From IMG/VR virus record IMGVR_UViG_3300010392_000649, positions 1 through 30,458 of that record: a DNA stretch of 30,458 nt, one strand, 5' to 3'. Positions 24,497 through 29,213 of the stretch are shown in pieces. The notes under the pieces were generated by a model that was not told where the DNA came from, did no database searches, and saw only the letters and a list, made by a program, of their open reading frames with translations. How positions within the stretch are numbered: position 1 is the first letter of the stretch; the number at the start of each line of letters is the position of its first letter. The stretch is from a virus. A program made the position numbers and the translations under genes.

Positions 24497-25293
24497 CTCG
24501 TCTCCTTTTTTATTAGCCCATTTTTGTCGTTCTTCCAACAGAACTTTATATAAGGGCATGGTTTACCATATATCTTTCCGCATGCTTCTAAATTCTTGTA
24601 GTATTTTCCACTACTTATGTTCTCTTCTACTTTCGTCATACTCTCTACAACTAGGTTCGAATGATACTCAGGCATGTCATCGATCAGTACCTGCAACATC
24701 TTCCTGCAATTCTTTTTGACCAAGATAATGAACCCGGCTTTCTTTATCTTCTCATGAGAGCAATACAAAGCTAATTGGGTACTATCCTGAACGGCAGTCC
24801 TGACATACGGTCTTGCTGCTGTCTTGTGATCCACCAGCACTGGTCCGTCTCCGAAGTCGAGGATTGCGTCCAATACACCGGGGCGTCCCTCTATCTCCTT
24901 CTGTATACTGATGACCTTCTTGATAGTAGGCAAGATGTCGCGAGCATACTCTTCAAGACCTAGTCTACCTTTAACTCTTAGGCTGGCCCAGGAAATGTAT
25001 TCCATCGGCATCCCTTGAAGTTTCTGAGCCTGCTCTTCGTCGAAGACCCTCATGTCTATGTCTCTCTTGTCCCATTGGACATTGGAGAAATCTTCATAAC
25101 GGAAGTGGTCGCGAAATACTTCCATGTACTTGTCGTCACCTAACAGTAGGGCGTTAAGCCCCTCGTCAACAGCGGTTCCAAACACCAATGCTGATGATGT
25201 ACCTGAAGGGCGCAGCCGCTCTCCGTAGTGAAGCCTGTACATTTCTGGACAGGTTAAGTATTTCTTCCATGCACTAAAACTAATCTTGCTCAT
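24493..25293 (-). CDS. PD-(D/E)XK nuclease, Cas4/RecB-like, with Cys cluster
   Basis: A 266-residue nuclease. N-terminal SFSAWKKYLTCPEMYRLHY matches the RecB/AddB-type 'S.s....fl.CP..f...y'. The catalytic line is GVLDAILDFGDGPVLVDHKT (about 139-158) with Asp142, Asp155 and Lys157, followed by QLALY (173-177, motif with Gln). Cys15, Cys238, Cys246 and Cys252 match the four-cysteine layout of Cas4/AddB iron-sulfur nucleases (one Cys before, three after the core). It probably degrades one strand of DNA ends to prepare the substrate for the ERF protein; no CRISPR array or other cas gene is nearby. Overlaps the ERF start by ATGA. Confidence 0.85.
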   Translation of the reverse strand: MSKISFSAWKKYLTCPEMYRLHYGERLRPSGTSSALVFGTAVDEGLNALLLGDDKYMEVFRDHFRYEDFSNVQWDKRDIDMRVFDEEQAQKLQGMPMEYISWASLRVKGRLGLEEYARDILPTIKKVISIQKEIEGRPGVLDAILDFGDGPVLVDHKTAARPYVRTAVQDSTQLALYCSHEKIKKAGFIILVKKNCRKMLQVLIDDMPEYHSNLVVESMTKVEENISSGKYYKNLEACGKIYGKPCPYIKFCWKNDKNGLIKKETR

Positions 25294-25669
25294 ATTTGTA
25301 CCTATCGTCTTTCCCTAAACCCTGCAATTCATGTTCCAACAGCATCAGCAGCCCGCAAGCGGCATGTGCTAGGTGGCTTATCTCAAACTCAGGGTCTAAG
25401 TTTTCTCCTGTGTTCCACGCGTGTAGGTGGCGCTGTATAGCTCCCTGAAGTCTACTCCAGTTAAAGCCCTCTCTCCAATTGTTATCACTGTATTTTTCCG
25501 CTCCCTTTGTAAAAACCTTAGCCACCTCTATCAGGGCAGCTGAAGGTATAAGTTCTATTCTGTTCTTCCCATGGTCATGCTTCGTTGCTGCTGCCGCTCT
25601 CTCCCGGATCTCCTTGACCTGGGCTGGCGTGATCTTCTTCCTTTCTATTCTTCTGCCGTAGTCGCTCAT
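25280..25669 (-). CDS. DUF5664 protein, dATP/dGTP diphosphohydrolase-type
   Basis: A 129-residue helical protein. The core reads DHGKNRIELIPSAALIEVAK, then FTKGAEKYSDNNW, SRLQGAIQRHLHAW, GENLDPE and ISHLAHAACGLLMLLEHEL, which is the DUF5664 pattern (K-R-L-L-P, GA-KY-..-NW, RH...GE..DpE...HL.H). The family is linked to a MazG-like dATP/dGTP diphosphohydrolase of Z-genome phages (from memory; not checked by search). Its role here is probably to trim the host purine deoxynucleotide pool. Its start lies 95 bases inside the preceding small gene. The upstream GAGGGG (about 25679) is an adequate ribosome site. No purZ or other base-modification gene is visible. Confidence 0.7.
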   Translation of the reverse strand: MSDYGRRIERKKITPAQVKEIRERAAAATKHDHGKNRIELIPSAALIEVAKVFTKGAEKYSDNNWREGFNWSRLQGAIQRHLHAWNTGENLDPEFEISHLAHAACGLLMLLEHELQGLGKDDRYKYEQD

Positions 25670-27063: not shown

Positions 27064-27458
27064 GGCTTGTCCTTTATTCTGTTAACCAGTATGTGCTTTA
27101 CGAAGATACCGAAGAAACTACTCGACAGTGTAAACTGTTTATCCTCGTGCTGGTTCAGTAAATATATGATGTCGTCTCTATCAATGAGGTTATGCTTCGC
27201 AACCTCCGAATAAAAAACCATTTTAAGTTGATCTGTCTTCCTGCCAGTGAGCCCATGTAGCCACCGATGGAACTTAACAGGCACCGCTATCAGATTCTCT
27301 GGCCTGTTGTCATACTTCAAACAATTAATATGATGGACATGAACCCCGTCTTGGGGGAACACGCCACCAAACGCTTTACCGTATACTTCGTTATGCTCAA
27401 GGACACCGCCTGGTAGCTTTACGTACTGATTAATGGGGACGCGGGTTACCTTGCTCAT
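27060..27458 (-). CDS. HNH endonuclease
   Basis: A 132-residue nuclease with a compact HNH motif: VHVHHINCLKYDNRPENL (about 39-56), with HH at 42-43 and Asn51, followed by FHRWLHG (His64). This follows the 'vHHid....dNrpeNL......H...H' line of phage HNH proteins. It might be a free-standing homing nuclease or take part in phage DNA processing. It is coupled by ATGA overlaps on both sides, so it is built into the operon rather than a recent insertion into a gap. The ribosome site is weak. The C-terminal 50 residues are not typical of HNH families. Confidence 0.78.
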   Translation of the reverse strand: MSKVTRVPINQYVKLPGGVLEHNEVYGKAFGGVFPQDGVHVHHINCLKYDNRPENLIAVPVKFHRWLHGLTGRKTDQLKMVFYSEVAKHNLIDRDDIIYLLNQHEDKQFTLSSSFFGIFVKHILVNRIKDKP

Positions 27459-27955
27459 GTTGCAATCCTATCTATGAGCCCTACCTTAAGTGCTTCTTCT
27501 GCTGTGTAGTATACATCTTTTGTAAACCAATTGGACACGGTCCGTCGCTTTACGTTCACTCTATCGAGGTAGATGGTCTCCATGTCCTTCAAAACTTTCT
27601 TGTTATGCTTAACCTCTTGAGTAGAGGAGGTAGCTGCATCTTCGCCGTAGTGAAGCAAAAACTCCGTATGCGGGTAGGCTACACGTTCGGTTCCCGCCTG
27701 GAGTATAATAGTTGAAATAGATGCGACCACTCCCATACAAACAATCTTTACATTGCCCTGTATATTCAGGAGGTTATAGATAGCGAACCCTTGGTTAACT
27801 TCGCCGCCTCCTGAATTAAGTTGTACCACTAGATTATCAGCTTTAAGTAAAGCGAGACCTTCACACGCAAGCTCATACATCTCCTCATTAACTTCGCCAG
27901 TAAGACGAAGAGTATTGTTTTCGAGATCGATGCCGCGTTTAAGTAGGTCCCTCAT
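27455..27955 (-). CDS. ClpP-fold serine protease
   Basis: A 166-residue ClpP/SppA-type protein. The catalytic triad can be read: Ser79 in MGVVASISTIIL (ClpP 'G.AaSmA'), His102 in TEFLLHYG (ClpP 'f..MIHqP') and Asp147 in TKDVYYTAEEALKVGLIDRI (ClpP 'RDrf.s..EA..yGLiD'). NSGGGEVNQGFAIYN matches the oxyanion-hole region. Shorter than bacterial ClpP (about 200). In most phages ClpP-like proteases process the prohead and lie in the head cluster; this one is an early gene, so it may degrade or process other targets, or pair with the host Clp ATPase. It starts one base after the previous stop and lacks a good ribosome site, so it may depend on coupling. Confidence 0.85.
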   Translation of the reverse strand: MRDLLKRGIDLENNTLRLTGEVNEEMYELACEGLALLKADNLVVQLNSGGGEVNQGFAIYNLLNIQGNVKIVCMGVVASISTIILQAGTERVAYPHTEFLLHYGEDAATSSTQEVKHNKKVLKDMETIYLDRVNVKRRTVSNWFTKDVYYTAEEALKVGLIDRIAT

Positions 27956-27956
27956 A

Positions 27957-28295
27957 TTACTTCAACTTCGCTACTAAAACTTGAGTGATGTTGCGGGCAG
28001 CTGCAATTTCTTCAAACTTGCTGACCTGATCAAGAGAGATGACGCCATCATTAGCGAGCTTCTTCTTGAACTCAATCTGATCGTCCACGCTGTTGAATCG
28101 GATGTTGCGATACTGAGGATCAATCGCTACTTCGCGGTTACCTACCATGATCTTAACATCAGGACTGAGAACCAATTGATGGTAAGAAAAATCAGTACCA
28201 TTTCCATCAGTGCCAGAAACCTTACGTACTGTACCGATCTCCCAGTTCTTAGCTTTAGCAATAATTGCTGTGTTATCTGCTTTAGTTGTTTCCAT
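27957..28295 (-). CDS. hypothetical protein with highly expressed codon pattern
   Basis: A 112-residue protein that I do not recognise. Its first half is beta-like (EIGTVRKVSG, YHQLVLSPDVKIMVGNREV, YRNIRFNSV), the second helical (QIEFKKKLAND, VSKFEEIAAARN). All five Arg codons are CGN and GCT, GTT, GAT, ACT are favoured, a bias otherwise clearest in the capsid gene, whereas the next gene upstream uses AGA/AGG only. The ribosome site is strong (AAGGAG, seven bases before ATG). This suggests high protein output, as for a single-strand DNA-binding protein or an abundant takeover factor. No acidic tail of a typical SSB is present, so SSB is a guess. Confidence 0.7.
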   Translation of the reverse strand: METTKADNTAIIAKAKNWEIGTVRKVSGTDGNGTDFSYHQLVLSPDVKIMVGNREVAIDPQYRNIRFNSVDDQIEFKKKLANDGVISLDQVSKFEEIAAARNITQVLVAKLK

Positions 28296-28304
28296 GTTTA
28301 CTCC

Positions 28305-28583
28305 TTAGTGTAGTTTATCTGTTTTAGGCTTACTTAGCCTTTGGTCTGTCTTCAATCTTTCTCTTTCTCCTAATGCGTAGCCTATTAAAAATATGTGAAA
28401 GGCTTCAGCATCAAAAACGTCCAAGCTATCTGCTATAGTTTCCATGATATCAAACAATGTTCTACCACTTATAGCTGACAAGTAAGTAACGTGCAATAGT
28501 TGTTCCAACTCAGTAACAGGCCTCCTCTCCCCTGTTATGATTTCTATTATTGTGTCTTCTGTCATAGATCCTTCGTCCATCAT
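28305..28583 (-). CDS. small hypothetical acidic protein
   Basis: A 92-residue, mainly helical, acidic protein of unknown function (TEDTIIEIITGERRPVTELE, then FDIMETIADSLDVFDAEAFH). It starts inside the thioredoxin stop (ATGA). A later ATG (MDEG or MTEDT) is also possible. No signal or membrane segment is visible. Confidence 0.6.
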   Translation of the reverse strand: MMDEGSMTEDTIIEIITGERRPVTELEQLLHVTYLSAISGRTLFDIMETIADSLDVFDAEAFHIFLIGYALGERERLKTDQRLSKPKTDKLH

Positions 28584-28999
28584 TTCTCTACCCGTTTGAT
28601 ACTGAGGAAGCTAGAAATAACTCTGTCTAGTTCAGCCTTTGACGGGAGACCAGAGCCTCTCACCACTACTCTACCATCTTTAAAGAATATCATGGTAGGG
28701 GTAGCGAACACACCCATCACTTCAGCGCAACTAGTACTCTTAAGAGCGTCAAGCTTCTTGATGTGCAATAGCCCTTTGTATTTGGCTCTGACAACTTTAA
28801 GCATATCGTCCATTTCGCTACATAATACGCAGCGTTTAGAGGAGTAATAGAGGATAATCTTGGGTTTTTTGTCAACTTCCTCCTTTAGTTTACTCAAACA
28901 AAGGACATCTTCTACCTTCATGGGTACTGGAGTTCCCTTGTACTTAGCCTCTCCGGACACACACATTAGACTTACTATAAGTAGTATTAATATTTTCAT
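28580..28999 (-). CDS. exported thioredoxin-fold protein
   Basis: A 139-residue protein with a Sec-type signal peptide: MK, a hydrophobic core (LILLIVSLMCV) and a likely cut after SGEA (residue 18). The remainder has a thioredoxin pattern: IILYYSSKRCVLC (48-60) with a CxxC active site (Cys57, Cys60), and FATPTMIFFKDGRVV (98-112) with the cis-proline (Pro101). Cys91 and Cys34 are extra. It would act in the periplasm or outside the membrane as a disulfide reductase or isomerase. It is expressed from the early operon with a strong ribosome site (AAAAGGAG). Not a lipoprotein by the usual lipobox rule. Confidence 0.78.
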   Translation of the reverse strand: MKILILLIVSLMCVSGEAKYKGTPVPMKVEDVLCLSKLKEEVDKKPKIILYYSSKRCVLCSEMDDMLKVVRAKYKGLLHIKKLDALKSTSCAEVMGVFATPTMIFFKDGRVVVRGSGLPSKAELDRVISSFLSIKRVEK

Positions 29000-29000
29000 T

Positions 29001-29213
29001 TTATCTCCTTTTAATTAAACATAAGTTACTTTCAACATCCATTACATAATCGTGACCTACTGGCGTATACCTGATCTGCTTCATACTCTTCTCGAAGTCC
29101 ACTTGCCAGTATGTCTCATGTAATGCAAACGTCGTGCCGACCATAGGGGTAACTGAGCGTCCCTGAGGTAGGAATAACGTAATATGGCATACAACTGTCA
29201 ATAAGTTAAACAT
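29001..29213 (-). CDS. small protein with hydrophobic N-terminus
   Basis: A 70-residue protein of unknown function. Residues 1-16 are hydrophobic (MFNLLTVVCHITLFLP), perhaps a short membrane or export segment; the remainder is mixed. It ends one base before the exported thioredoxin gene and begins on the previous stop (TGATG), with ribosome site GGGAG upstream. Its place beside a secreted protein gene might point to a shared location in the cell envelope, but this is not shown. Confidence 0.55.
   Translation of the reverse strand: MFNLLTVVCHITLFLPQGRSVTPMVGTTFALHETYWQVDFEKSMKQIRYTPVGHDYVMDVESNLCLIKRR

Follow-up and report, generated by a model that had tools for sequence, protein, structure and literature searches.

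Thioredoxins encoded by phages are usually read as intracellular helpers of DNA synthesis, T7-type DNA polymerase being one that binds thioredoxin, and outside the cytoplasm the thioredoxin fold occurs in the bacterial proteins DsbA and DsbC/G. The closest described phage system to the protein analyzed here is BdbA (YolI) of the Bacillus phage SPbeta/SPBc2, a phage-encoded single thioredoxin domain with a hydrophobic N-terminus, whose gene is part of the sublancin operon in a prophage of a Gram-positive host. BdbA is a thiol-disulfide oxidoreductase, and sublancin production can do without it (PMC6391423). Apart from SPbeta/sublancin, no exported phage thioredoxins appeared in the titles and abstract openings among the literature matches listed. 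The protein studied here has the same architecture as BdbA, in that a signal or anchor at the N-terminus precedes a phage-encoded thioredoxin domain, with export predicted in our case, and the two are alike in length (139 versus 137 aa), in the hydrophobicity of their starts (best 12-residue means of 3.39 and 3.46) and in a Tyr that, counting back six residues from the first active-site Cys, falls at the place of Asp26. Unlike our protein, BdbA has CPPC at its active site, and the sequence match between the two is weak (29.9% identity over 66% of our protein, E 0.6) and indicates no close sequence relationship. The preliminary description of this DNA was right to contrast the protein with the cytoplasmic thioredoxins of phages; thioredoxins of phages that begin with a hydrophobic stretch are not new, BdbA being an earlier case.

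The window, the whole stretch of 30,458 bases that was analyzed, is a siphovirus-like IMG/VR virus record in which tape measure and tail fiber genes lie on the plus strand, and genes for a family-B DNA polymerase, helicase/primase, exonucleases and an ERF recombinase lie on the minus strand with small genes upstream of them. Matches to scaffold and capsid proteins score below the Pfam cut-offs, and no named phage comes close to positions 5500-30458 at the DNA level. The features of the locus are as follows:

27957-28295, minus strand: operon gene for a 112-aa protein, next after the 92-aa gene; homologue in L005 (E 7e-5)
28305-28583, minus strand: downstream gene for a 92-aa protein, overlapping the thioredoxin gene by 4 bases; slot marker in relatives
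28580-28999, minus strand: thioredoxin-fold protein, putatively exported, 139 aa (stop included in coordinates), ATG start; from PF00085, the structure model and a homologue in the L033 slot
28697-28702, minus strand: T100-P101, at the place of the thioredoxin cis-proline; all 28 aligned rows have proline
28820-28831, minus strand: active-site codons C57-V-L-C60, corresponding in the alignment to C32-C35 of thioredoxins of E. coli type
28946-28999, minus strand: predicted export signal MKILILLIVSLMCVSGEA, residues 1-18, from hydrophobicity with an inferred cleavage site
29001-29213, minus strand: immediately upstream gene for a 70-aa protein with a hydrophobic start (N-terminal hydrophobicity 2.40), possible partner
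29005-29009, minus strand: ribosome-binding site AGGAG of the thioredoxin gene

The thioredoxin gene has a good Shine-Dalgarno sequence (AAAAGGAGATAAA-ATG). Since the genes between 30458 and 25847 share one strand and are overlapping or tightly spaced (overlaps of at most 16 bases, gaps of at most 9), they probably form one transcript, a packed operon that the thioredoxin gene shares with replication genes (the family-B polymerase, the helicase/primase and the exonucleases); these replication genes suggest that the operon is "early", as the preliminary description called it. A scan for promoters and terminators found none of the latter, and its five promoter-like sites did not exceed the 6.1 expected. 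For the 70-aa neighbor neither Pfam (E ≤ 10) nor NCBIfam (E ≤ 1) gave a match, and PHROG gave a single weak one (phrog_23616, unknown function, E 0.1); the 92-aa protein matched no Pfam family above cut-off. In the 33 of the 37 window ORFs that were scanned, no DsbD-like electron donor or ribonucleotide reductase was seen and no bacteriocin gene or exporter was recognized. PADLOC matched no family at E ≤ 0.01.

The protein belongs to the thioredoxin fold both by sequence profile and by model. Pfam PF00085 matches residues 37-128 (E 8.4e-11; 42.2 bits against a cut-off of 23.5), PHROG family phrog_22 (thioredoxin domain) matches at E 3e-4, and the best PDB chain found by sequence is a designed thioredoxin (E 1.7e-8), with natural thioredoxins following from ~1e-6. 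An AlphaFold2 model of residues 19-139 from the 28-row alignment had a mean pLDDT of 90.2 and a pTM of 0.79, and its best PDB matches were thioredoxins (from E 5e-8, TM-score ~0.75 by query length); modeling of the full-length protein from its single sequence was poor (pLDDT 43.8). The preliminary description had named this fold and proposed structure prediction as a check, and profile and model alike bear it out. The NCBIfam thioredoxin equivalog TIGR01068 was not reached (42.1 bits against a cut-off of 96.8), so the protein is not a classical thioredoxin. It also differs from the bacterial periplasmic DsbA and DsbC/G, as there was no match to the DSBA Pfam family at E ≤ 10, the DsbG NCBIfam profile, whose cut-off is 124 bits, scored it at 13.1, and the helices of the model leave no room for a DsbA-like helical insertion.

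With cytoplasmic phage thioredoxins (phrog_22) and bacterial TrxA the protein shares the fold, the cis-proline position and the CxxC spacing, but where the comparison thioredoxins mostly have WC(G/P/V)PC, Asp26 and Trp28, it has RCVLC, Tyr51 and Ser53. The CVLC motif given in the preliminary description can be read directly at residues 57-60, where the first active-site helix carries its CxxC, and TPT occupies residues 100-102; both cysteines and the cis-proline (P101) are kept in all rows of the 28-row alignment. Five phage domains with hydrophobic starts were aligned, L035 being left out as a near-duplicate of L034. In them the position of E. coli Asp26 is taken by Y, Y, K, R and R and that of Trp28 by S, Y, S, T and T, the Trp being lost in all five, whereas the comparison rows have D at the Asp26 position in 22 of 23 cases (E in the other) and W28 in 22 of 23. 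These 23 rows, one from a phage and 22 from the best 80 genome loci, are neither a random sample nor a census because the pattern that found them was derived from these proteins. Among them is L211, which keeps Asp26 and Trp28 even though it has a lipoprotein start of signal-like type, and the loss of these residues is therefore no rule for exported thioredoxins. Trp31 is lost in the window protein (R) and in the protein of the relative L033 (E). With Asp26, Trp28, Trp31 and the CGPC dipeptide lost, redox catalysis could be weak or absent; thioredoxins that lack an Asp26 equivalent can still be active (PMC3720550). The retention of the cysteines without the motif argues for a specialized rather than a general role.

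Export was assessed solely as N-terminal hydrophobicity, expressed as the best 12-residue Kyte-Doolittle mean, and by this measure the start of the protein is strongly signal-like, unlike that of classical TrxA, which has no export signal. Its value of 3.39 is the highest among the 37 window ORFs, followed by those of the 70-aa neighbor (2.40) and of a third ORF (1.43), and among the 443 genes of at least 100 aa in the related loci L005-L060 a value of at least 3.39 is reached by two. The signal peptide of the preliminary description is thus upheld in the sense of an export-type hydrophobic start. The N-terminus reads MKILILLIVSLMCVSGEA followed by KYKG, with the proposed cleavage site between the two, after A18; Ala stands at position -1 and Gly at -3, and by the -1/-3 rule for signal cleavage this is our guess at the most likely site. 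A lipoprotein formed through Cys13 was considered and dropped because the Met before the Cys does not fit the lipobox. That thioredoxins of relatives also have hydrophobic starts makes work outside the cytoplasm likelier.

The closest relative by identity of operon genes is L033 (39.7 kb), with 51% identity in the polymerase and 58.6% in the exonuclease (best segment); L052 and L005 have slightly more genes in common with the window, at lower identity. The gene order in L033 is a pentapeptide-repeat gene, an 83-aa protein, a thioredoxin-like protein and an 86-aa homologue of the 92-aa gene (alignment score reached by 7 of 5000 shuffles), and by reading a 90-aa gene occupies the place of the window's 112-aa gene. 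The thioredoxin-like protein of L033 has 148 aa (152 from an earlier start), a start that is hydrophobic but less so (2.24; a value of 2.4 is reached by 25 of the 443 genes of related loci), and cysteines arranged as CGAPC (CxxxC). In pairwise BLASTP it aligned with residues 1-135 of the window protein at 22% identity (E 3e-7), and the score of 66 between the mature parts was reached by none of 5000 shuffles. It falls just under the cut-off of PF00085 (23.0 of 23.5 bits, E 8e-5) and scores E 0.06 when the window protein is searched against the ORFs of 154 loci, so the case for homology is made by synteny together with the pairwise tests. The active-site pair comprises the sole two cysteines of the L033 protein, and the absence of others argues that the pair still matters. 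The preliminary description had made its reading depend on conservation of the active cysteines, and this expectation held by half: the pair is kept in L033, but as CxxxC and with the flanking classical residues gone.

A 70-residue neighbor with a hydrophobic N-terminus is present as described earlier, and in L033 the 83-aa protein, also with a hydrophobic start, occupies the same place. Between these two small proteins, sequence similarity is not significant and is confined to a stretch of 13 residues; the 83-aa protein has two cysteines, both beyond the hydrophobic start, and the 70-aa protein has a single cysteine outside its own. The idea that the neighbor is a partner of the thioredoxin-fold protein is therefore favored by the repeated position and not by the sequences of the small proteins.

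By its own sequence the window protein found no close viral relative: its search of viral contigs gave 14 pattern matches, the corresponding searches with the single-sequence polymerase and the 112-aa gene gave 2 and 14, and none of these was confirmed. Relatives were instead found through alignments of the polymerase (16 and 59 loci, overlapping sets) and of the exonuclease (best 80 of 119 loci). Of 54 related records, searched as sets of 14 and 40, PF00085 matched in none of the first set and in 7 of the second, although this search missed L033 and can thus miss divergent thioredoxins. Hydrophobic starts precede the domain in five of the seven, the other two (L074 and L075) looking cytoplasmic by reading. 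L070 and L072 encode one and the same protein, a single thioredoxin domain of 111 aa starting with MDSRKLALILFLGVLPMSANA followed by KNV; directly before its gene in L070 is a 184-aa gene, and two genes upstream is a 54-aa protein with hydrophobic segments. In L069, L071 and L073 the thioredoxin domain comes last, after the hydrophobic start and a metalloprotease-like domain with HExxH; the PhageMetallopep match is above cut-off in L034 (a copy of L069) and below it in L073. All of these proteins, like those of the window and L033, have lost Asp26 and Trp28; in place of the CVLC of the window and the CxxxC of L033 they keep WCPPC. Apparently exported protease-thioredoxin fusions with HExxH and a C-terminal WCPPC were recorded at L036:3378-4097 (metalloprotease-like motif HELGHALGLDH), L034:1080-1859 and L035:2418-3197.

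A profile of three hydrophobic-start thioredoxins found no further convincing member among the ORFs of 154 loci, and a search with the thioredoxin alignment gave five loci, three of them known records found again and two (L156 and L157) with thioredoxins of cytoplasmic type by reading. A thioredoxin is present in two of the seven slots that were read; another gene adjoins the 92-aa homologue in L005, L021, L025, L032 and L052 (as read), and L078, with neither a thioredoxin nor a recognizable 92-aa homologue, was left out of this count. As none was found in most related records, the gene is best regarded as accessory rather than core. Weak matches occurred in six plasmid records, four of them annotated trxA. 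In the genome scan with the thioredoxin alignment (best 80 of 169 confirmed), many of the thioredoxins were from Bacteriovoracaceae and deltaproteobacteria, at identities of 22-32%, with patterns that favor sequences of this type. A host in these groups is not claimed, because the polymerase had four matches in 129 genomes of deltaproteobacterial class, the best two at 26-28% identity, and these are no closer than the Salinibacter phages (29%). Phage records with thioredoxin matches are frequent (385 in one search), and 14 of those listed, not picked at random, were surveyed, with L253 outside the comparison of starts: BdbA (3.46) and an ssRNA-phage record of doubtful standing (3.33) were the only two with a strongly hydrophobic start, while alternative starts in L250 and L254 reach 2.46 and 2.03.

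Putting together the thioredoxin fold, the signal-like start, the packed operon and the homologue in the L033 slot, we infer, with a probability of roughly 0.55, that the protein is an exported thiol-disulfide oxidoreductase of the host envelope, probably a dedicated reductase or isomerase, that alters the envelope during infection. The host Sec machinery would export the thioredoxin-domain protein as infection proceeds, cleavage most likely following A18, after which the domain would work in the envelope space. There the cysteine pair would exchange disulfides with an envelope client, either a protein of the host or one that the phage sends there, probably as a dedicated reductase or isomerase and not as a general thioredoxin. 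The gene may belong to an optional set for exported proteins that lies in the same operon upstream of the replication genes and that some phages of the lineage do without, and its likely purpose would be to alter the host envelope while the phage multiplies. The main value added by this analysis is the finding that apparently exported thioredoxins recur among these related phages, in more than one form and, in one case, in an identical slot; such recurring proteins, some of them fused to a protease-like domain, would point to phages acting on envelope disulfides.

It is possible, though unlikely, that the protein is an exported folding helper for a small secreted protein of the phage, with the 70-aa neighbor (83 aa in L033) as its client. 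The small hydrophobic-start protein lies immediately upstream in both the window and L033, the 83-aa protein has two cysteines past its hydrophobic start, BdbA offers a precedent through its location in the sublancin operon, and Tyr is found at the Asp26 position in the window, L033 and, by counting, BdbA. Yet the two small proteins have no detectable similarity and the window one has a single cysteine outside its hydrophobic start; the L070 thioredoxin is preceded by the 184-aa gene, even if the 54-aa protein lies further upstream, and BdbA itself is dispensable, as noted above. Slightly less probable again is an exported binding protein acting as scaffold or inhibitor, for example in superinfection exclusion, with cysteines that are structural or bind metal. 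The CxxxC of L033 and the losses of Asp26, Trp28, Trp31 and the GP dipeptide would fit such a protein, as would its rapid divergence (22% identity between the syntenic homologues versus 58.6% for the exonuclease). The L033 protein, however, keeps exactly the active-site cysteines and no others, the hydrophobic-start thioredoxins of the other relatives keep WCPPC, and the activity reported for thioredoxins without an Asp26 equivalent weakens the argument from the lost residues.

Conventional roles inside the cell and at lysis fit the locus less well. We consider it improbable that the protein is a cytoplasmic thioredoxin serving nucleotide reduction or the polymerase, its hydrophobic start being no export signal, even though thioredoxin matches are frequent in phages and a ribonucleotide reductase gene adjoins the thioredoxin in 3 of the 14 surveyed. 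The signal-type start comes with a ribosome-binding site of its own and is repeated in L033 and other relatives, no ribonucleotide reductase was among the scanned window ORFs, and TIGR01068 was missed by a wide span of bits; a role with a T7-like polymerase was dropped, as the window polymerase is of family B and not of T7 type. SAR endolysins are controlled by disulfide exchange (PMC3556154), and a lysis helper that activates a disulfide-locked SAR endolysin would accord with the finding that no lysis gene was recognized in the window, itself possibly a fragment. The gene is one of a replication operon, however, and the L033 record has an Amidase_2 amidase (E 3.6e-20) that lacks a hydrophobic start and stands, by reading, beside a holin-like gene, which makes this role very improbable. 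A wider version of the exported oxidoreductase preferred above can be formulated, which we regard as unlikely: phages of this lineage with a family-B polymerase may carry an interchangeable exported set, consisting of thioredoxins, thioredoxin-metalloprotease fusions, ClpP-like proteases with signal-like or anchor-like starts, and lipoproteins, that would unfold (through disulfide breakage) and cut envelope proteins of the host such as receptors during infection and so shut out competing phages, with the window protein as the disulfide-breaking part.

Similar-looking lipoproteins (LTGC, LVAC and LTAC starts) are encoded near the front of the operon in L033:1466-1774, L021:960-1391 and L263:76-465, two of them with a collagen-like stretch; judged from L033, the window ends two genes before this place. 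Phage lipoproteins can exclude other phages, T5 being the example (PMC10434257), and by analogy superinfection exclusion, one of the roles raised in the preliminary description, is thinkable for the window protein, although the T5 case does not count as evidence for it.

Several other proteins were recorded in the course of this analysis. ClpP-like proteins with signal-like or anchor-like N-termini occur in nine loci (L263:4185-4859, minus strand; L029:16745; L028:17468; L009:5928; L042; L037; L038; L027; L024), of which L263 was the one checked against Pfam CLP_protease, and L005:243-470 resembles a C-terminal piece of such a protein; the ClpP-like protein of the window itself (27455-27955) is of cytoplasmic type. 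Proteins of 124-157 aa with one N-terminal membrane segment are found at L261:1-390 (minus strand), L263:3444-3830 (minus strand) and L032:420-794, with similar ones in L031, L045 and L054; some end in a beta-rich tail, and in the L033 record they lie near amidase and holin-like genes, so that by reading they are possibly lysis proteins of spanin-like type. L032:616-1293 (minus strand, start at MKFFIAMLMMFVTPGHGA) has a signal-like start and, by eye, a possible cysteine-poor thioredoxin-like pattern. The ssRNA-phage record L247 (NC_073930.1) opens at 79-561 with a membrane-anchored thioredoxin of bacterial type that breaks off into unrelated residues, and is possibly a chimeric assembly. Finally, positions 25280-25669 of the window (minus strand) encode the N-terminal domain of a dATP/dGTP diphosphohydrolase (PF18909, E 1.2e-32), a family linked to phages with modified adenine.
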